DNA from: Metabacillus flavus
Lineage (GTDB): Bacteria; Bacillota; Bacilli; Bacillales; Bacillaceae
Reading direction: 5' to 3'
Length of the DNA: 64,000 nucleotides
NCBI RefSeq assembly: GCF_018283675.1
Contig: NZ_JAGVRK010000001.1
Location: forward strand, 2,852,001 to 2,916,000
The stretch's first letter is position 1. The number at the start of each line of letters is the position of its first letter. Shown here in pieces: positions 15,081-49,038 of the stretch. Under the pieces are notes generated by a model. It did not search any database, had not been told where the DNA came from, and was given only the letters and a program-made list of their open reading frames with translations. Made by a program: the position numbers and the translations under genes.

Positions 15081-15271
15081 CCTTTTCTCCTCCTAGAGCA
15101 TACTTCCTACTATTTTAGATAAGCTCTGATTGAAAGACAAGGCTTATGCCTAAAAAAGCGCAAGCGCCTTGAAGGAATGAAGTTCTGCTAAGTGCGCGAC
15201 GTCCTGTCGCAACGCTGAACTGACCCGCGTCCTGCGGGCCTCCGGAAATAATAACCGGAGGCTTTTGAAAT

Positions 15272-35097: not shown

Positions 35098-36372
<1,275 letters not shown>

Positions 36373-36387
36373 TCATTTTGATGGAAA

Positions 36388-36625
36388 ATAAAAAAGCCCC
36401 TTCATTTTAAAAATGAAGGGACGAATTTCGTCGCGGTACCACCCTACTTAAGAATGGTGCACAAAAACCATTCTTCGCTCAATCAAATAACGGCCGTTAA
36501 CCGTCTTCAGCCGCTAACCGCAGCTTCAGATGCTCATGGAATGTAATTCGCAGTCCTCTTGTGTACTGATTTTCACCGGCCATCAGTTCTCTGAAACAGG
36601 GAAGAAGCTGCTACTGTATACCAAT
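36388..36625 (-). ncRNA. tyrosine T-box riboswitch of tyrS
   Basis: On the minus strand the T-box sequence AGGGTGGTACCGCG is at 36432-36445, followed by a terminator hairpin (CCCTTCATTTTTAAAATGAAGGGG plus T run, 36388-36420, read as two arms). The upstream Stem I region contains GAAAATCAGTACACAAG, where TAC (36563-36565) is the likely Tyr specifier codon. Uncharged tRNA-Tyr should stabilise the antiterminator and allow tyrS transcription. The 5' limit is approximate. Confidence 0.93.
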
Positions 36626-36759
36626 CGTTGCTTATTATTCACATATTGAATTTTTACCACAATACAAGCTATTATGTCAAATCTGTTTTTCCGACAAATG
36701 ATACAAATTTTCAGTTAATTTTGTGTTATAATATTTTTGCTTCAAGGGGGAGGATTGGA

Positions 36760-41127: not shown

Positions 41128-42588
41128 TTATTCAGCACCCGCCAATCGGTTTAACCGGCGGGACAGATTGTGAAAAGGACCCTCTATACGAGTATGGCGG
41201 GACTTACAGAAAGCATAATAATCGGCTTTGGAAACATATTGAAAGAGCCTGAACGATGAGTAGACAAAGCTGAGCAAGCTCCCTGCCGTAAAACCTACGC
41301 CATAGCCTGCCTCTCCTGCTGGAAGCATCAGCAGCGTAAACAGCGCAATTCCCCCAAAGAATGCTGCAGAGGTGATAAGGGCACCCACCCGGTCATCAAA
41401 ATAAAGAAGCAGCAGCATCATGATCATGGTCATTCCGTTGCAAAAAGCTCCAATCAGCGTAATCCGGAATATGCCCAATATGAGATCTGCATTGACAAAC
41501 AGAGGGAATATAAAGAGAGCTAAAAATAGTATCGCCAGGGAAATAAACCCTTGATTTCTGACAAGCCTCTCAATCTCCTGTTTAAGCACAAGCAGCATTT
41601 TTCCCTTTGACTTTCTGATTTGAGTTAACGTTCCCCCATCATTGATGAAGGAAAAGAAATCCCGGTATCTCTCATAAAATCTTGTTTCAATGGAAACGAC
41701 GAAAATGACATAGGACGGCAAAATCGTTAAGTAAGCATAAAACACTGCCGTATCATAGCCTGGATGGTAACGAAAGGTACCTAAAAGCCAATGCCCGCCC
41801 GATACCCATATGATCCAATTGCTCACCCATAACCCGGCATTATAAAAAATCCCTGTAAACGCAAGCTGCGGATATTTATCAAAATAAGTCAAATATTCGA
41901 ATGGCAGAGATGCGGCACGGTTTGGGAAGGTTTTCAGCATAGAGTTCACCAGCCAGAGAAAGGTCACTGCGATTCCTGCCGTAAAACTGCCCATCATAAT
42001 CCAGGCTGGAGTCCATTCCCCTTGAGAGAATGGGTTCCATTTCAGCAATATAAACATACAGCTGATTGAAAAGACTCCGCCTGCCAGGAAGGCTAGGGCT
42101 ATGGATTGATAATTCTTAGCACCTGACAGATAAAGGAGCATAATCCATATTAAATTAAGAAGCATAAATAAACCAAGCATAAGAAATTTATATTCCCACT
42201 GCAGCGGCGACAGCAATGCGAATACTAGCCATAGGATGAAGGCGGCCGCAGCCGTCACCGCCGAAAAACCAAGAAAAGAGGAAAATACCTTTTCTTCTTT
42301 TTTTTCGTAGAGGCAATCAGCCGTATACCTTGTCACAACGAGCTGCTGAAAACCAAATAGAACCTGAGAAAACATAAAGCAATAGGAGACAGAAATCATA
42401 AACAGCTGCTTATTCAGGGAGTTGACCCCCGGGACTGCCTGGAGCAGGATCTGCAGCATTAGAATGGTGAAAATAACAATCAGCCAAGGGCCCGCTGTAA
42501 CAAACAGAGAATACAAATACGCTTTTAGCCTGGAAGAATAATAATCTTCTTTAAATAATTTTTGCAGCTGGAATCCGATGCCGGCCAA
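41128..42588 (-). CDS. pelG: Pel exopolysaccharide membrane transporter PelG
   Basis: Polytopic membrane protein (about 12 helices) that forms the Pel polymerisation/export channel with PelF. The start is taken as TTG at 42586-42588 (MAGIGFQLQKLFKEDYYSSR), because GAGGGG lies eight bases before it and PelG proteins begin this way; it gives 486 aa and overlaps pelF by 38 bases. Upstream in-frame ATGs at 42609 and 42654 lack sites. Hydrophobic stretches run throughout. Last gene of the pel operon. Confidence 0.9.
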   Translation of the reverse strand: MAGIGFQLQKLFKEDYYSSRLKAYLYSLFVTAGPWLIVIFTILMLQILLQAVPGVNSLNKQLFMISVSYCFMFSQVLFGFQQLVVTRYTADCLYEKKEEKVFSSFLGFSAVTAAAAFILWLVFALLSPLQWEYKFLMLGLFMLLNLIWIMLLYLSGAKNYQSIALAFLAGGVFSISCMFILLKWNPFSQGEWTPAWIMMGSFTAGIAVTFLWLVNSMLKTFPNRAASLPFEYLTYFDKYPQLAFTGIFYNAGLWVSNWIIWVSGGHWLLGTFRYHPGYDTAVFYAYLTILPSYVIFVVSIETRFYERYRDFFSFINDGGTLTQIRKSKGKMLLVLKQEIERLVRNQGFISLAILFLALFIFPLFVNADLILGIFRITLIGAFCNGMTMIMMLLLLYFDDRVGALITSAAFFGGIALFTLLMLPAGEAGYGVGFTAGSLLSFVYSSFRLFQYVSKADYYAFCKSRHTRIEGPFHNLSRRLNRLAGAE

Positions 42589-43987
42589 CCTTTTCACCCC
42601 TCTCTGCATAAAGATTTCTATAAAATGTAATAACGTCCGATAATAGGTAGTCATTTTTCACACGGTTAAGACCATTTTGGCCCATCCGTCCAAGCAGTTC
42701 GGGATGATTAATAAACCATCTCAAACGATCCGCCAGTTCCTCAGGCTGAATAGGAGGAATGACAAAGCCGCATGCACCGTACGGATCTTCCTCCCTTCCC
42801 TCGATGAGTTCTCTGCAGCTTCCTACATCTGTTGCCACCCAGGGCCTGGCTGCGGCCATTCCCTCCAAGATAGCCAGCGGCTGTCCCTCTGACAGACTGG
42901 TCAGAACACACACATCGAAGGACAACAGGTAATCCTGTACATTAACCTTGCCAGTAAAGGTAACCCATTGCTCAAGTTCAAGACTCACAACTAAATCCTT
43001 GCATTCCTGTGCATACTCGGGCAATTCTTCATCTGACCCTAAAATGGACCAATGAAAATCATATCCCCACCTTCTTAAAGTGTTAGCCGCATAAATCATC
43101 GTTTTTATATCCTTAATCGGTACAATTCTAACAATGGCTCCGATATGGAAAACCGGCTTCTTCCCTTGAAGAGTTAACGCCGTATTGATGTCTATTCCAT
43201 TAGGGACAATAGCCGTTTTCTCAGGCGAAGCCCCGAGCTCCAGCTGATAGCCGCGGTTTTTTTCAAATAAGGTGATAATATCCTCTGCCTGTTCATAGGC
43301 AATCTTGGAAAGATGATGAAAAAGCTGGATCCATCTTTTTTTGTATATAACAGGAATCCATGATGATTGAAGAATTTCCTCTTCTCTTTCCCTGGAGTAT
43401 ATTCCATGCTCAGTAATAATAAAAGGGATGTTTTGTACAATCGATATATACGTCCCGATTAACCCTCCATACCCGGTAGAAGCGGTATGAATGACATCGA
43501 CTTTACTGTAATCCTGCTGGAGGAGATGCATAATGGGTGTATACATGGATTTCCACATCCACATATAATCAAGAAATGACCCATATAGCTCCTCAAATTC
43601 ATAGCACTCCTGAACAAGGGTGTAAAAAGATTCACTCTCAAAAAATTCATCCACCGACCCCATTTTTTCCCGATTCCCAAGAATAAGAAGCGCCTGCGGA
43701 TCAAGCGTTTGAAAGGTAAACCATCTGAATAGAAGAGATAATTCTTCTTTTGTAAGATTGGATTTGACCCTATTTACCGGAAGATCGGTTATTAATTCGA
43801 TATTCTGATGATGAACAGTATTCTTGGTAAGTGTATATTTCAGTTCACTTTCTTTTTTCTTTTCAGGAGTAATCGTAAAAAGAGAGAATTCGATATCTTC
43901 CATTCCGGTGATCAGGGTATGAATCCAGCTCGATACCCCGCCGCTTACATAAGGATAACTACCTTCAGCGATCATTCCCACTCTCAT
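42551..43987 (-). CDS. pelF: Pel polysaccharide glycosyltransferase PelF
   Basis: 478 aa GT4 glycosyltransferase that uses UDP-HexNAc to build the Pel polymer on the cytosolic face. The N-terminus MRVGMIAEGSYPYVSGGVSS is the PelF start (GSYPYVxGGVSSW); the acceptor/donor regions ITEHGIYSREREEEI, VRIVPIKDIKT and SLSEGQPLAILEGMAAARPW (with the EX7E-type glutamates) are all present. Translationally coupled to the upstream deacetylase gene by ATGA. Overlaps pelG. Confidence 0.95.
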   Translation of the reverse strand: MRVGMIAEGSYPYVSGGVSSWIHTLITGMEDIEFSLFTITPEKKKESELKYTLTKNTVHHQNIELITDLPVNRVKSNLTKEELSLLFRWFTFQTLDPQALLILGNREKMGSVDEFFESESFYTLVQECYEFEELYGSFLDYMWMWKSMYTPIMHLLQQDYSKVDVIHTASTGYGGLIGTYISIVQNIPFIITEHGIYSREREEEILQSSWIPVIYKKRWIQLFHHLSKIAYEQAEDIITLFEKNRGYQLELGASPEKTAIVPNGIDINTALTLQGKKPVFHIGAIVRIVPIKDIKTMIYAANTLRRWGYDFHWSILGSDEELPEYAQECKDLVVSLELEQWVTFTGKVNVQDYLLSFDVCVLTSLSEGQPLAILEGMAAARPWVATDVGSCRELIEGREEDPYGACGFVIPPIQPEELADRLRWFINHPELLGRMGQNGLNRVKNDYLLSDVITFYRNLYAERGEKVGRHRIPAAKII

Positions 43988-45834
43988 TTCCTGCCCGCCT
44001 CTTTCCAGTCAGCCTCAGCATCAGGCTTGTTCATGCTTAATAAGTATAGTCCAGGCTGCCGCTCTTCAATTTTACCGAACGGATAGCTTCCCTCTTTCAG
44101 TTTTTTTCCCTGCTCCAGCCGGACATAAAATAAAGAAGGCTTCGGAACGTGATAGCCATGAATCTCCAACCCGTCTTCTTTGTAAGTAATCGACCATCGG
44201 CCTTCCTGATAGGCTGTCATCCGTTGTTTTGCATCAATTTGTTTATAGCCTTTAACATATTCAAAGTTCTTTGCAAGAAACGATTGCATGTGCACATACT
44301 CTCCCTTTAAACTTTCCCAGCTTGCATTTTTGGAGCGGTCTTCATCGAGCACATCGTCCGGATGAATAAAATGAGAAAATACCCCCATGTTGGCTATAGC
44401 ATCCGTTAGCTGGAACTGATCCTCTTTTGTAAAGGTATAACCGCTATTAATCCTTGGGAAATGATATAAATCCGTATAGACCGAATCATAGCCAAATTCC
44501 TGAATCAAGCTGCCATTGGAAGGATCTCCAGTATAAAGACTTGAAAGAACCTCTAAATTGGGCATTGTGTGCCTCAAGGCGGATATTCCAGTGCGATTCA
44601 GCAAATTGGATGGAGGCACATAAGTCCTTAGCTTTTGATCAGGGAAAAGCTCCTCCTGAACGCCTCTAAGTTCAGAAAGCGAACTTTCCATTTCAGACTG
44701 GGACTCCCAGTAGCGGTATCCAAAATCCGAGGAAACCGGCTCCTCTTTTGTCACAAGTGATTCATGATTATATCCATGCAGCGCGAGCTCCCCGTTAATC
44801 GACAGCAGCTGCCTTCCATAGGCGAGCAAATCCTTTTGGTTCATTTCCATCAGCTGTCCGGTTAAAAGGCGCGGTTTATCAAGATACGTCCCGATGATGG
44901 CACCGGTATAAGGAAAATCATAGGTTTGACTAATTGCCTTCATGTCCGGCCACCATATTTTTTTATAAAATTCAGGGTATGACATTCCATATTCATTCCT
45001 GATTTTTTTTGACTCCAATGCTGCGATTGGGGCTGGAAAATCGTCAATATACATGACTTTTCCACCCATTTGACCAGAGACAAATGCTGGGAATGCGAGG
45101 CTGATCGACTGAACAATGAGACCGCGTGTGCTTTTATCCTGGAGGCTTGTACCGTTCCAGTTTACGATTCTTCCGGAGCCTGCGTCACGAGTCCACAGCA
45201 AAGGAAGCGATCCGGCGGACAAATAAGTTTTTGCCTCAGGATGCAGTTCAGCCTTCAGCATGCTGTTGGAGAAATAGTCCGAATTTGTATCCAGATCAGG
45301 ATAGCCTTTAAAAAATGAATCTGAAAATGTAATTCCTTTGACTTCGTCATCGAATCCATTTTCCTTTTTTATACCGAGAAATTCATTCCATTCAGGATCA
45401 GAAAATCGATTTGCTAAAAAAAGCCGGCCTCCGTCATTTACAAATTGTTCAATTGCATCAAAATCCCAGCGGGCTGTATTCTCTCCCGTTAAAATAAGCA
45501 GCGTATACGGGTCGGGTTTTAGGGTCCCGGACTTTTCTGCTGGAATGACTTGGTACTGGATTTTCGCATATTCCAGCGCTTTTTTAATATTGAAAAAGGT
45601 TCCCTCACTTAGCTTGTTTCCCTTTTCAGGTTCCGTTAAATACACCAGCATATTGCCAGCCCTCTTATTAGGATAGCTTGAATTCATATAGGCAACTTTT
45701 TCTGCAGGCTGCCCATTTTTACTCAGCGGCAAATTGGAATAAAAATGATTCGAATTCATAAATAAAACTCCAGCAAGCAATAAGATGACTGCTCCAAACG
45801 TAAAAATGGCAAAACGGGGAATCCGCTCATTCAC
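43984..45834 (-). CDS. pelA: PelA-type polysaccharide deacetylase (DUF2194)
   Basis: 616 aa, N-terminal membrane anchor (residues 9-26) and a large extracytoplasmic part. A Rossmann-like region is followed by a CE4-like deacetylase with metal/catalytic residues D264-D265 (MYIDDFPAP) and H353-xxx-H357 (LHGYNHES). It corresponds to the deacetylase half of Pseudomonas PelA (PelA-DA in Bacillus cereus) and should remove acetyl groups from GalNAc/GlcNAc units. The glycosidase half of PelA is missing here; a separate GH114 gene lies upstream. ATGA overlaps on both sides. Confidence 0.9.
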   Translation of the reverse strand: MNERIPRFAIFTFGAVILLLAGVLFMNSNHFYSNLPLSKNGQPAEKVAYMNSSYPNKRAGNMLVYLTEPEKGNKLSEGTFFNIKKALEYAKIQYQVIPAEKSGTLKPDPYTLLILTGENTARWDFDAIEQFVNDGGRLFLANRFSDPEWNEFLGIKKENGFDDEVKGITFSDSFFKGYPDLDTNSDYFSNSMLKAELHPEAKTYLSAGSLPLLWTRDAGSGRIVNWNGTSLQDKSTRGLIVQSISLAFPAFVSGQMGGKVMYIDDFPAPIAALESKKIRNEYGMSYPEFYKKIWWPDMKAISQTYDFPYTGAIIGTYLDKPRLLTGQLMEMNQKDLLAYGRQLLSINGELALHGYNHESLVTKEEPVSSDFGYRYWESQSEMESSLSELRGVQEELFPDQKLRTYVPPSNLLNRTGISALRHTMPNLEVLSSLYTGDPSNGSLIQEFGYDSVYTDLYHFPRINSGYTFTKEDQFQLTDAIANMGVFSHFIHPDDVLDEDRSKNASWESLKGEYVHMQSFLAKNFEYVKGYKQIDAKQRMTAYQEGRWSITYKEDGLEIHGYHVPKPSLFYVRLEQGKKLKEGSYPFGKIEERQPGLYLLSMNKPDAEADWKEAGRK

Positions 45835-46739
45835 TTTTGCTCCCCTCCTAAAAATCGGATAATTTCTTGCTGATTTCCCGGGAAAGAAACCAAATCCGGA
45901 TGGTTTTTAAGCCTGACAGCTAGCTCAAAAACTCTTTCCCATCTCTCTTTTTTATAGGAGATCTTCAACCATCCCCACATGACGTTAGCAGAATTCGGGT
46001 TTTGCTTAAGAAGTTTTTCAAAAATGCGTTCTCCCTCTTCGGGATTTTTTTCAAATAAACATAGACCAAGCGCTTCTGTATATTGAACGTCCTCAGGAAA
46101 TGCTTTTGCTGCTTCTCTCAAAAATGCCTCATATTCAGCCTCGGTTTTCTCCCTGATCGCATTAGAAAGGAGTTCGCTGGAAAGATAATCCTGATAGGAA
46201 GCAAACAGCTGTTTATAAGAGGAGGGCCGGTCGGGAACTATTTCTTTTTTCTGCTGCTGGATAAGATTCAATAAACGATCATGCAGAACATTTGTAATGG
46301 TTGCTGCATAATGGACCGCCTCCATATCCGGATGGTTAAGTCCTTTCTTAATGATCTTTTCCTGATTGACTGTATTCTCGTTCGACATACGCAGCAGGAG
46401 ATTCTTCATCATCCAGGTATTTTCCGCGCTGTGGCTCGTCATGTTCAGCAATTCCCGGTCCTGCCTCAGCGTTTCTCTCAAACTCTCAAAATTGTACACC
46501 TTATTATGAATGTAGCTAGAATATTCCTCCATGAAAGTGCCGTCCTGTTGTCTCATGTATACCAAGAGCAAAAACCAGCCATATGCGAAACCAGCAACGG
46601 GAACCGCGATTGAAAGAAGAATCCATAACGCAAGAAGACCGTACTGATTTTGTTCCATTTTTTTGGCATAGAAAAATCTGGACAGCAGATAGGCTGCCGT
46701 TATTCCTAAAAGAGACCCTGCAGCAAAAATCCATATCAT
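45831..46739 (-). CDS. pelE: Pel biosynthesis protein PelE
   Basis: 302 aa. Two N-terminal membrane helices (residues 2-20 and about 33-62) are followed by a cytosolic all-helical part with TPR-like packing (LFEKNPEEGERIFEKLLKQN, PNSANVMWGWLKISYKK). PelE bridges PelD with PelF/PelG in the membrane complex. Identified mostly by position between pelD and pelA and by topology, since PelE is poorly conserved. ATG overlaps the pelD stop (ATGA). Confidence 0.8.
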   Translation of the reverse strand: MIWIFAAGSLLGITAAYLLSRFFYAKKMEQNQYGLLALWILLSIAVPVAGFAYGWFLLLVYMRQQDGTFMEEYSSYIHNKVYNFESLRETLRQDRELLNMTSHSAENTWMMKNLLLRMSNENTVNQEKIIKKGLNHPDMEAVHYAATITNVLHDRLLNLIQQQKKEIVPDRPSSYKQLFASYQDYLSSELLSNAIREKTEAEYEAFLREAAKAFPEDVQYTEALGLCLFEKNPEEGERIFEKLLKQNPNSANVMWGWLKISYKKERWERVFELAVRLKNHPDLVSFPGNQQEIIRFLGGEQK

Positions 46740-47962
46740 CTTAACGAATCCACCTCTTTTTCCAGAGCTCTCTGAAGTCTCGCTTTCACTGCCGTTTCGT
46801 TTACAGGTTCTACACCCGGCAGGAGCACATAAAGAATTTCCGTCTCTTCATCCCAGCCTGCTGTATCAAGCTCCCTCAGCTGGTTTTTCATCAAGAGATC
46901 GATTTCATCCAGTGAAAGTCCGGCTGTATTCAGTTCAAAAATGACAAACGGCTGACCAATCTTTTCTGCCCTTTCAAGCTCTGCATTGAATCGTTTAAAA
47001 AACGAGGCAAGCTTAAAGATTCCCGTACCGGGATATCTTTCATGGTGATTCTGCTCCCGCTCATATTTGTAGGCAAAGCCAAGCCTTGTCCCCATCCACT
47101 TTAAGCACCAGTCAAGCCACTGAATCTGCTGAGATGTGCACGACTTTAAATCAATTCCATCCACTGCGAGTAAGTATCTCATCTCCCCATAAATAAAAAC
47201 CGGTCCTGCCAGCGCGGGGGATGCAGGATCATCTTCTGGAGACCTGAACAGCACATGAGAAGTTTCCTGCATCACTTTGTTAAAGAGAGATGGCATTTCC
47301 GCCATCCAATAATTCGATTTCAGCTTTCCATCTCTGTTTGTATTTATTTTGGAACGTATTGAATCCCCGTGATTGGAAATAAGGTATAAAACAAGCTGGC
47401 TGCCTTTGAATTTTTGGTTGACAATGCGCACCATTTCATTAAAAATTGTGTCTGAATCCGTAAAATGAAGCGCAGTAATCATTTCATACATTTCTGCATA
47501 CTGATCCTCTGATTCTAAAAATCTTTTTCTATAACTCTCATTTACAGATAATGCTTCGTCTAATGTTTCTTCCAGAAGTTTTTTATCCTCAGAAATTTCT
47601 TCATATAAATATGATATATCAGAATATCTTTCTTTATGAGATTTACTTGATAGTCCAGTAAAAAGCAGCAGGAAAAAGAATAGCATCATCGCTAGCATAT
47701 GATTTAAGTCTGTCAGATAAAGATATAGATCGCCACCGCTTTGATATTCGTAAGCAAGCGAGGTTAAAAAGGCGATAAAAAAAGGAATCAGACCAAAATA
47801 TAAGCCATACCTCATAGAAATAAGGACAATTGCAACAGACCAAAGCACCTCATTCAGCACAGGGAGACTGTCCGTAAAGAGGAAAACCAGGATGATGCTT
47901 AAAATGGATAGTCCAATCGCTTCAGTTAATTTTAGAATAGTATTAGATTGTCTGTAGATCAT
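46736..47962 (-). CDS. pelD: PelD, c-di-GMP receptor of the Pel machine
   Basis: 408 aa from the ATG at 47960-47962; a GTG three codons upstream is only two bases from AAAGG and is less likely. Four membrane helices (about 8-115) are followed by a coiled segment, a GAF-like domain (about 150-290) and a degenerate C-terminal GGDEF domain. The active-site motif is lost (WDEETEI at the GGDEF place), but the inhibitory-site pattern RxxD is kept as R363-ELD. This matches the PelD design, where c-di-GMP binding to the I-site switches on polymer synthesis. First gene of pelDEAFG. Confidence 0.9.
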   Translation of the reverse strand: MIYRQSNTILKLTEAIGLSILSIILVFLFTDSLPVLNEVLWSVAIVLISMRYGLYFGLIPFFIAFLTSLAYEYQSGGDLYLYLTDLNHMLAMMLFFFLLLFTGLSSKSHKERYSDISYLYEEISEDKKLLEETLDEALSVNESYRKRFLESEDQYAEMYEMITALHFTDSDTIFNEMVRIVNQKFKGSQLVLYLISNHGDSIRSKINTNRDGKLKSNYWMAEMPSLFNKVMQETSHVLFRSPEDDPASPALAGPVFIYGEMRYLLAVDGIDLKSCTSQQIQWLDWCLKWMGTRLGFAYKYEREQNHHERYPGTGIFKLASFFKRFNAELERAEKIGQPFVIFELNTAGLSLDEIDLLMKNQLRELDTAGWDEETEILYVLLPGVEPVNETAVKARLQRALEKEVDSLR

Positions 47963-47991
47963 TCGAATCACTGCCTTTTATAAAAAATAGG

Positions 47992-48020
47992 TTGAGTTCA
48001 GAAAAATAGGCTGATATGAT
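47992..48020 (+). promoter_or_regulatory. promoter of the riboswitch-GH114 transcript
   Basis: TTGAGT (47992-47997) and TATGAT (48015-48020) are spaced 17 bases, placing the start at about 48027, four bases before the aptamer. It lies only 30 bases from the divergent pelD start, so the pelD promoter must overlap this region or the riboswitch on the other strand. Confidence 0.75.
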
Positions 48021-48030
48021 TAGGACAAAA

Positions 48031-48148
48031 GGTGATGGGCAAACTTGCTGAAAAGCAAGGACGCAAAGGCATGGGTCGTCGACTTCTACATGGAAGTACC
48101 GATCGCCAGCCTGCGAAGCTACCATCCCTCGTTAAAAAACGGAGGGAT
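48031..48148 (+). ncRNA. cyclic di-GMP-I (GEMM-I) riboswitch with RBS-sequestering platform
   Basis: P1 pairs GATGG (48034-48038) with CCATC (48122-48126). The conserved GGGCAAAC, a hairpin CTTGCT-GAAA-AGCAAG (48044-48059) with a GNRA tetraloop, and GGACGCAAAGGC (48059-48070) are the class I core; CCTGCGAAGCTACCATC closes it. Downstream, ATCCCTC (48124-48130) can pair with GAGGGAT (48142-48148), hiding the ribosome site GGAGGG (48141-48146). That hairpin shares bases with the P1 3' strand, so ligand-bound P1 should free the site. An ON switch acting on translation is the prediction. No terminator T run is present. Confidence 0.92.
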
Positions 48149-48153
48149 TACAA

Positions 48154-49038
48154 ATGAATAACGTAATCAGATTTTTTGTATTGGCTTTTTTTGCTGTATC
48201 TAGTATTATTTCTTTATCTCCCGCTGCTTCTGCTTTAACGACTTCTTTTCCCGCTGCTTCTGTCCAAAATGTTTCTGCTGCAAATGGAGTGTTTGATGAC
48301 GTGAAAACCTACAAAATTTTCTACGATGCTCCCACCCCGGCTATTATCAATAAGATGAAGGCTTATGACCTTGTCATAATAGAGCCTCTTCTTTACACCA
48401 AAACCCAAATCGAAACGATTAAGGCAAATGGTACGAAAGTATTCGGCTACATCAACTCGATGGAAGCTGATAATTGGAATACCGCATTTTTGCAAAAACT
48501 TCAGCCTGCAGATTACTATCAGCAATCCAGTCAGAAATATTATATTCAGCAATGGGATTCCTACTTGATGAATATGTCTTCCCCGCACTTCAGACAATTG
48601 CTGCTTTCTGAAATTGAAGCCCAAGTTTACAGTAAAAATATGGATGGCGTCTTTTTCGACACCGTTGGAAATATAGATGATTATTTCAGCGGAAATCCGG
48701 ACGAGCTTGCCAAACAGCGCGCAGGTCTCGAGGAATTGCTTAAAAGTGTAAAAAACACATACCCTTCTCTTGGAATTATTCAGAATTGGGGCATGGAAAC
48801 TCTCAAAACAACAAGTGCAAAATATGTAGATGCAATTATGTGGGAGAATTTCAACCACAATGTTGTCTCTAAAGATGCTTGGTCTAAAAATCAGATGAGC
48901 GATTTAAAAGCCATTCAGAAGGAAACTGGACTTAAAGTTCTTACTGTTTCTTTTGAACAGCACTCTAAGAGTGAATGGTATTCCCTTCAGCAGGGATTTC
49001 TCCATTATAAGGCAACTAAAGACTTTAATAGATGGTAA
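48154..49038 (+). CDS. secreted GH114 endo-alpha-1,4-polygalactosaminidase-like glycosidase
   Basis: 294 aa with a signal peptide (residues 1-27, cut at ASA-LT) and one TIM-barrel-like GH114 domain. Candidate catalytic acids are Asp169 (MDGVFFDTVGN) and Glu231 (IMWENFN); strands YDLVIIEP, KVFGYINS and LGIIQNWG fit the family. It corresponds to the glycosidase half of Pseudomonas PelA, here split off, secreted, and placed under the c-di-GMP riboswitch and divergent from pelD. It could trim or release the Pel polymer. The substrate is inferred from context. Its terminator is at 49179. Confidence 0.88.
   Translation: MNNVIRFFVLAFFAVSSIISLSPAASALTTSFPAASVQNVSAANGVFDDVKTYKIFYDAPTPAIINKMKAYDLVIIEPLLYTKTQIETIKANGTKVFGYINSMEADNWNTAFLQKLQPADYYQQSSQKYYIQQWDSYLMNMSSPHFRQLLLSEIEAQVYSKNMDGVFFDTVGNIDDYFSGNPDELAKQRAGLEELLKSVKNTYPSLGIIQNWGMETLKTTSAKYVDAIMWENFNHNVVSKDAWSKNQMSDLKAIQKETGLKVLTVSFEQHSKSEWYSLQQGFLHYKATKDFNRW

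Follow-up and report, generated by a model that had tools for sequence, protein, structure and literature searches.

The window, a 64,000-nt stretch of the Metabacillus flavus genome (4.03 Mb in two contigs), carries a pel operon on its minus strand and a separate hydrolase gene, pelAH, that diverges from it on the plus strand. The operon runs in the order pelD-pelE-pelA_DA-pelF-pelG, which is the Gram-positive pel arrangement. The glycosyltransferase gene pelF (42551–43987) matches NF038011 with 339 bits (cut-off 100), pelG (41128–42654) matches PF16933 with 453 bits, and pelA_DA (43984–45834) is deacetylase-type by Pfam (DUF2194). No informative family match was obtained for pelD (46736–47971) or pelE (45831–46739, a weak TPR match below the cut-off), and both were assigned from their position, their length and their likeness to relatives. 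The order of the genes and the PelF and PelG matches bear out the first-pass annotation, which had described a Gram-positive pel operon divergent from a hydrolase gene. pelAH (48154–49038) encodes a predicted secreted PelA-type glycoside hydrolase of 294 aa, assigned from Pfam, a PDB profile search and the fold. galE, an accessory gene that often flanks such operons, was not found beside pel among the flanking frames scanned in the window; the two frames beyond pelG are a penicillin-binding protein and a BrkB-like protein, and the next frame on the pelAH side is PTS-like by eye. Elsewhere in the window, a T-box leader (36414–36637, minus strand) precedes a tyrosyl-tRNA synthetase-like frame (35098–36357, by eye), and a Bacillaceae-1 RNA locates at 15172–15238 on the plus strand.

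A consensus scan found a promoter-like element upstream of pelAH, TTGAGT-N17-TATGAT with an extended -10 (TG), at 47992–48020 of the plus strand. Seven such sites were counted versus 4.2 ± 1.8 when the region was shuffled; taken alone, the element is thus weak evidence. It is kept in 4 of 18 leaders, namely those of the window and its three nearest relatives. The listed GTG start of pelD (47971) is 20 bp from the -35 hexamer, and not 30 bp from the promoter as had been stated.

When the whole window was searched with RF01051, a full-length match was found at 48028–48118 on the plus strand (62.4 bits, E = 8.3e-10, gathering score 35), and the Rfam alignment marked no non-standard pair. R2, a model of the variant aptamer and its leader built from 16 sequences, scored this aptamer, one of its training sequences, at 142.9 bits. 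The aptamer elements listed in the first-pass annotation (GGGCAAAC, a GAAA loop on a 6-bp stem, GGACGCAAAG and GCGAAGCTACCATC) are all there, and the P2 hairpin with the GAAA loop was located at 48044–48059 by the Rfam alignment and an alignment of 16 relatives. The key ligand contacts reported for a solved c-di-GMP-I aptamer are G20, C92, A47 and A48 (PMC3764141). By alignment, the predicted contact bases of the window are G20 at 48038 (model column 11), A47 at 48065 (column 38) and C92 at 48114 (column 87), the last showing no variation in either of two alignments, of 30 and of 16 sequences. G20 was placed from the pairing of Rfam columns 13 and 36, as C22 and G45 pair in PMC3764141. These three bases and the pairs G21-C46 and C22-G45 are conserved, and the 16 relatives share most of the core without change. 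By its score and contact bases, the window aptamer is of the c-di-GMP-I class, with c-di-GMP as its predicted ligand. The central observation, an aptamer before a PelA-type hydrolase gene beside pel, is thus confirmed. Three further c-di-GMP-I aptamers (78–88.9 bits by Rfam) were found in the genome. The next same-strand frame codes, by eye, for a secreted repeat protein at L001 and for an XRE-type regulator at L003; at L002 it is a frame of 154 aa. The aptamer before the XRE-type regulator (L003 1502–1595, genome C1 about 2465714) and another at L040 8770–8857 score best with RF03167, c-di-GMP-I-GGC.

The window aptamer differs from the usual form in P3, in which the tetraloop receptor CUAAG/UAUG is replaced by GUCGUC/UACCGAU while the GAAA tetraloop is still present. 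With GUCGUC/UACCGAU or close forms taken as the mark of the variant and CUAAG/UAUG as that of the ordinary form, the 26 riboswitch-bearing rows of the PelAH tree comprise 18 variant aptamers and 8 ordinary ones with other leaders. R2 was run over 397 genomes with 8 candidates scored per genome. It gave 11 matches of at least 98.5 bits in 10 family codes, all directly before a PelAH match, and the next best match scored 76.4 bits. Of the 11, nine belong to the training set, either directly or as an identical contig with a second name; the others are G205 and G313, the latter close to two training sequences. Because of this overlap and the limited number of candidates, the search indicates that the variant was unseen elsewhere in these genomes and does not amount to the prediction of many new cases. 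In Ectobacillus antri (L034, 8428–9003), P3 is split by about 450 nt including repeated blocks, and a relative carries a smaller P3 insert (L140, 1285–1441); both keep the aptamer halves on either side, and the split copy of L034 is not among the 18 counted carriers described below. In three ordinary-type pelAH leaders (L058 8824, L063 8882, L075 8827), one of Metabacillus fastidiosus and two of Cytobacillus, position 20 is A and not G. As a G20A mutant of this class is reported to bind cGAMP (PMC7288161), the ligand of these three aptamers may differ.

The pairing of aptamer and hydrolase gene was followed across relatives. In a family search of 80 genomes, PelAH was matched in 14, RF01051 anywhere in 59 and PelF above cut-off in 14, and the aptamer precedes the hydrolase gene in all six genomes of the window's genus code. 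Twenty PelAH loci were scanned with Rfam: the aptamer is directly upstream in the six of the window's genus and in G055, G057 has two copies farther off near small frames, and the remaining 12 have none. A covariance model (R1) was then built from 30 c-di-GMP-I sequences and applied to a set of 80 PelAH loci from named records (1.41 Mb, some genomes contributing two loci). It gave 27 matches, of which 18 are just upstream of pelAH on the same strand, versus 0.23 expected by place. Pel linkage was defined as PelF above 120 and PelG above 50 bits within 5.5–18.9 kb around the locus, a span in which linkage can be misjudged on short contigs. The aptamer is directly upstream in 17 of 51 pel-linked loci and in 1 of 29 others (Fisher p = 0.0018), and so the pairing next to pel, for which the first-pass annotation had proposed a comparative search, does recur. 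The riboswitch is absent from 34 of the 51 pel-linked loci, which counts against the best explanation. The carriers include Metabacillus, Halobacillus, Pseudalkalibacillus, Exiguobacterium, Fictibacillus, Cytobacillus, Lysinibacillus, Ureibacillus, Sporolactobacillus and Tumebacillus, and the pel genes may be divergent from pelAH, upstream on the same strand or downstream on the opposite strand. B. cereus pelAH is not among the surveyed loci. Among 41 further PelAH loci, R1 matched 12, all within the 29 order-level loci (four of them, L125, L126, L128 and L144, repeat named loci), and none among the 12 family-set loci.

The PelAH tree has 95 rows, namely the window, 78 of the 80 named loci (two were under 151 aa and were dropped) and 16 of the 29 order-level loci, which were chosen by hand (7 with and 9 without riboswitch). 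On this tree, the variant label changes six times (four forced by starred branches) and the ordinary label four times (three forced), and therefore there was more than one gain or loss. A phylogenetic pairs test of riboswitch versus pel linkage had 4–5 usable pairs and gave no significance, so the claim made here is one of recurrence and does not extend to a proven correlation in evolution. Family genomes of genus code g4 carry up to 19 (G069) and 15 (G053) c-di-GMP-I riboswitches each, an unusually large RNA regulon for c-di-GMP. In a Metabacillus litoralis-type genome (L015), two more c-di-GMP-I aptamers locate near pelAH (250–333 and 964–1050). The second is followed, at a distance of 18 nt, by a 44-aa frame with one hydrophobic stretch (1069–1203), and a frame of 43 aa that resembles it (715–846) locates between the two aptamers. 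Are these small frames membrane proteins under c-di-GMP riboswitches?

The start codon of pelAH is 35 nt 3' of the window aptamer, and the N-terminus of PelAH is signal-peptide-like by eye. In Pfam, PelAH matches both GHL15 (PF14885, 49.5 bits) and GH114 (PF03537, 42.2 bits) above cut-off. Among solved structures, the closest in sequence are hydrolase domains of PelA: a profile of 12 PelAH relatives matched PelA in PDB with E = 1.9e-15, and GH114-named entries ranked lower (3.7e-4 or weaker). An AlphaFold2 model (mean pLDDT 84.7) was searched with Foldseek and matched a GH191 alpha-galactosaminidase (E = 1.1e-14) and PelA (2.3e-14, TM 0.65/0.74), followed by Aspergillus Ega3 (1.4e-10) and a Fusarium GH114 enzyme (2.7e-9). 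The earlier description as a secreted GH114 enzyme holds for the signal-like start and the PF03537 score, but GHL15 scores higher and the PelA and GH191 structures outrank those of GH114. D169 and E231 are invariant in both alignments (12 and 14 sequences), and E231 sits in a WE motif that aligns with the WE of PelA; the catalytic Glu is reported as E218 in P. aeruginosa and E213 in B. cereus (PMC7112168). Judged by sequence and predicted fold, PelAH is a PelA-type hydrolase with E231 as the conserved candidate catalytic Glu, and it probably cuts the Pel polymer made by the divergent operon. A second PelAH copy, 46% identical, is in the genome at C1:959385–960125, and no RF01051 match was found near it in the 3.7 kb scanned (L019). 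The nearest named relatives of PelAH are from Bacillus sp. SJS (94%), Metabacillus mangrovi (74%) and M. kandeliae (56%), and a search of plasmids found five distant relatives.

On the other side of the locus, PelD carries RELD, a candidate c-di-GMP I-site, at aa 366–369 (46865–46876, minus strand). RxxD is found in 16 of 17 aligned PelD proteins, with an insertion at that place in L062. A sequence search of PelD against PDB gave one match only, which is weak and unrelated. The RxxD I-site of B. cereus PelD is reported to bind c-di-GMP, and this PelD depends on c-di-GMP (PMC7112168). Because the aptamer precedes pelAH in relatives and PelD keeps RxxD, it is a fair inference that two c-di-GMP inputs, one protein and one RNA, would meet at one locus. 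The dual c-di-GMP control proposed in the first-pass annotation is thus partly supported, by the aptamer before the hydrolase gene throughout the genus code and in other genera and by the kept RxxD; that annotation gave neither an expression platform nor the sign of the switch.

Between the aptamer and the start codon, the Shine-Dalgarno sequence GGAGG (48141–48145, plus strand; assigned by sequence and spacing) is buried in a hairpin, AUCCCUCGUU/AAC(G)GAGGGAU, at 48124–48148 (-11.3 kcal/mol, z = -2.12). In 16 relatives, the seven pairs of this hairpin are paired in 84.8% of cells and the covariation is 0.374 versus 0.273 ± 0.035 in shuffles. None of 500 shuffles was as high on pairing or covariation, and slid versions of the hairpin pair less. 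Two pairs show double changes, which is not above shuffles (2.6), and eight cells do so, versus 4.2 in shuffles (23 of 500 as high). As these double changes separate the Halobacillus type (4 rows) from all other rows, they represent few events. Four leaders (L027, L044, L046 and L147) have a U-run 3' of the hairpin, so a terminator role is possible there. The conserved hairpin suggests that pelAH is probably controlled through translation, and overall the riboswitch very likely controls pelAH.

For the direction of control, the pairing partners of the anti-Shine-Dalgarno strand have to be considered. In a constrained fold, a P1 compatible with the aptamer pairs UACC (48120–48123) with GGUG (48031–48034) and leaves the window Shine-Dalgarno hairpin whole. 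Duplex computation gave a competing helix, P1b, between GAUGG (48034–48038, including G20) and CCAUC (48122–48126), with an extension in which 48127–48129 pairs 48030–48032. The best duplex with the aptamer 5' strand takes G20 in all of 20 variant leaders, several of them near-identical; it takes G21 as well in 15 and overlaps the 5' arm of the Shine-Dalgarno hairpin by at least 3 nt in 19. The duplex energies are -7.9 to -13.9 kcal/mol, although at most 15 of 300 shuffles were as strong in only 11 of the 20, and in RO3 and f5 the duplex is no stronger than in shuffles. In ordinary leaders at pelAH, G20 is taken in 3 of 8, and in 23 ordinary c-di-GMP-I leaders from elsewhere the duplexes are weak (-1.7 to -6.4), with G20 taken in 10. 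Covariation of P1b is thin (0.060, a value reached by 29 of 500 shuffles and by several slid versions; two double-change pairs). Since ligand binding and the pairing of G20 in P1b should exclude each other, this helix points to an OFF switch. If the riboswitch does control pelAH, the OFF direction is moderately favoured; we infer from structure that it has more support than ON.

The opposite direction, in which the ligand stabilises a P1 that takes the anti-Shine-Dalgarno strand and PelAH is made together with Pel at high c-di-GMP, is considered rather unlikely. GGuGAUGG/CCAUCCC can be read as an extended P1 that frees the Shine-Dalgarno sequence, and GGUGAUGG/CCAUCCC had at one stage been the favoured ligand-bound P1. 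It was dropped as favourite and retained as a rival because the helix takes G20, in the window and in the 19 other variant leaders, and because the aligned C92, which lies farther upstream, is the invariant C after a purine in 20 of 20. Folding with and without aptamer constraints, run at six transcript ends, divides the leaders. In the window the Shine-Dalgarno accessibility is unchanged (0.19 to 0.19), with little change in most leaders of its type. It falls under constraint in 5 of 5 Halobacillus, Pseudalkalibacillus and Exiguobacterium leaders at all six transcript lengths, so that the Halobacillus type folds against an ON switch. It rises in f31 and RO3 at some lengths, as an ON switch would have it, and in f26 at one length; in RO3, the anti-Shine-Dalgarno strand pairs into a helix 5' of the ligand pocket. 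A run under different constraints gave a similar picture. Further points for ON are the c-di-GMP riboswitch Bc2 of the B. cereus group, reported to turn its gene on (PMC7423583), and the Pseudomonas precedent, in which the hydrolase is fused into PelA and always made with it.

Two other explanations leave the direction aside. The riboswitch may work while the enzyme acts on a galactosaminoglycan other than Pel, for example that of competitors or fungi. The fold matches to the GH191 enzyme and Ega3 besides PelA are consistent with this, as are the 29 of 80 PelAH relatives not linked to pel in the stretch examined, but pel linkage is found in several arrangements and in 17 of the 18 riboswitch cases, and BCE_5582 is reported to disrupt Pel biofilms at nanomolar dose (PMC7112168), which makes such a substrate improbable. 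It is very improbable that the variant aptamer has drifted to another cyclic dinucleotide or to no ligand, leaving a constitutive Shine-Dalgarno hairpin as the leader: the loss of the usual tetraloop receptor and the equilibrium folding of the window, which shows no switch, would fit, whereas the kept contact bases and pairs, the mostly invariant core and the covarying hairpin argue against it.

In the preferred OFF reading, at high c-di-GMP the ligand would hold G20 and P1b could not form; the Shine-Dalgarno hairpin would then stay closed and PelAH would not be made, while PelD would be activated and Pel made. When c-di-GMP falls, Pel synthesis would stop and P1b would free the Shine-Dalgarno sequence, the hydrolase would be made, and the matrix would be trimmed or dispersed. 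That a variant c-di-GMP-I riboswitch controls pelAH translation in the OFF direction and that the hydrolase should cleave Pel is, taken together, an evenly balanced proposition. The wider proposal, that a dedicated riboswitch subfamily, in this survey found only before Pel hydrolase genes, turns expression off in response to c-di-GMP, with the cutter blocked while Pel is made and released when c-di-GMP falls, is put forward tentatively.

Several parts of this system are already known from the published accounts, namely the Gram-positive pel operon, a divergent PelAH that limits biofilm and the c-di-GMP control of PelD (PMC7112168, PMC13254593, PMC12345266, PMC7112194). Pel loci of 161 Gram-positive species are covered in PMC7112168. 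That 2020 study described and assayed a hydrolase of this kind, separate, divergent and with a signal sequence, as PelAH/BCE_5582: it disrupts Pel biofilms, and its loss raises biofilm in B. cereus (PMC7112168). Thus, of the separate, riboswitch-controlled secreted hydrolase put forward in the first-pass annotation, the aptamer and the divergent gene are present, but the separate divergent secreted enzyme had been published. B. cereus ATCC 10987 shares with the window the operon order, the divergent secreted hydrolase and a PelD with an RxxD I-site (PMC7112168), and differs in that the main text of that paper mentions no riboswitch and the window has no galE in the scanned flanks. The hydrolase domain of P. 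aeruginosa PelA has the same fold as PelAH and is matched by the profile, but it is fused to the deacetylase, whereas that of the window is a separate gene with its own leader. Bc1 (mcp) and Bc2 (cap/cbpA) of the B. cereus group belong to the same riboswitch class (PMC11218506, PMC5816809, PMC7423583); they are reported with other target genes, and Bc1 acts via terminators, in contrast to the Shine-Dalgarno hairpin type and variant aptamer of the window. SIR_1591 of Streptococcus intermedius is likewise a separate extracellular hydrolase at a Gram-positive pel locus, but it has a DUF4832 part, and the text of PMC12345266 mentions no riboswitch for it. The word riboswitch is absent from the main texts of PMC7112168, PMC13254593, PMC12345266 and PMC7112194 and occurs twice in PMC8876208, in the reference list only. 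A riboswitch on a Pel hydrolase gene was not found in a search of the open-licence literature.

These results bear on why and when Gram-positive bacteria make a matrix-degrading enzyme beside a matrix-making operon. Pel hydrolase genes would be a class of targets of c-di-GMP riboswitches for which the open-licence search gave no earlier description. If the switch is ON, the matrix would be trimmed during building, by co-production as with the fused Pseudomonas PelA. If it is OFF, the cell would build without cutting and cut once building stops, so that dispersal would be coded by the signal. If the proposal of a dedicated OFF subfamily is true, a protein receptor and an RNA receptor reading one signal would make this locus a self-contained switch between building and dispersal, conserved in at least 10 family codes within the order.
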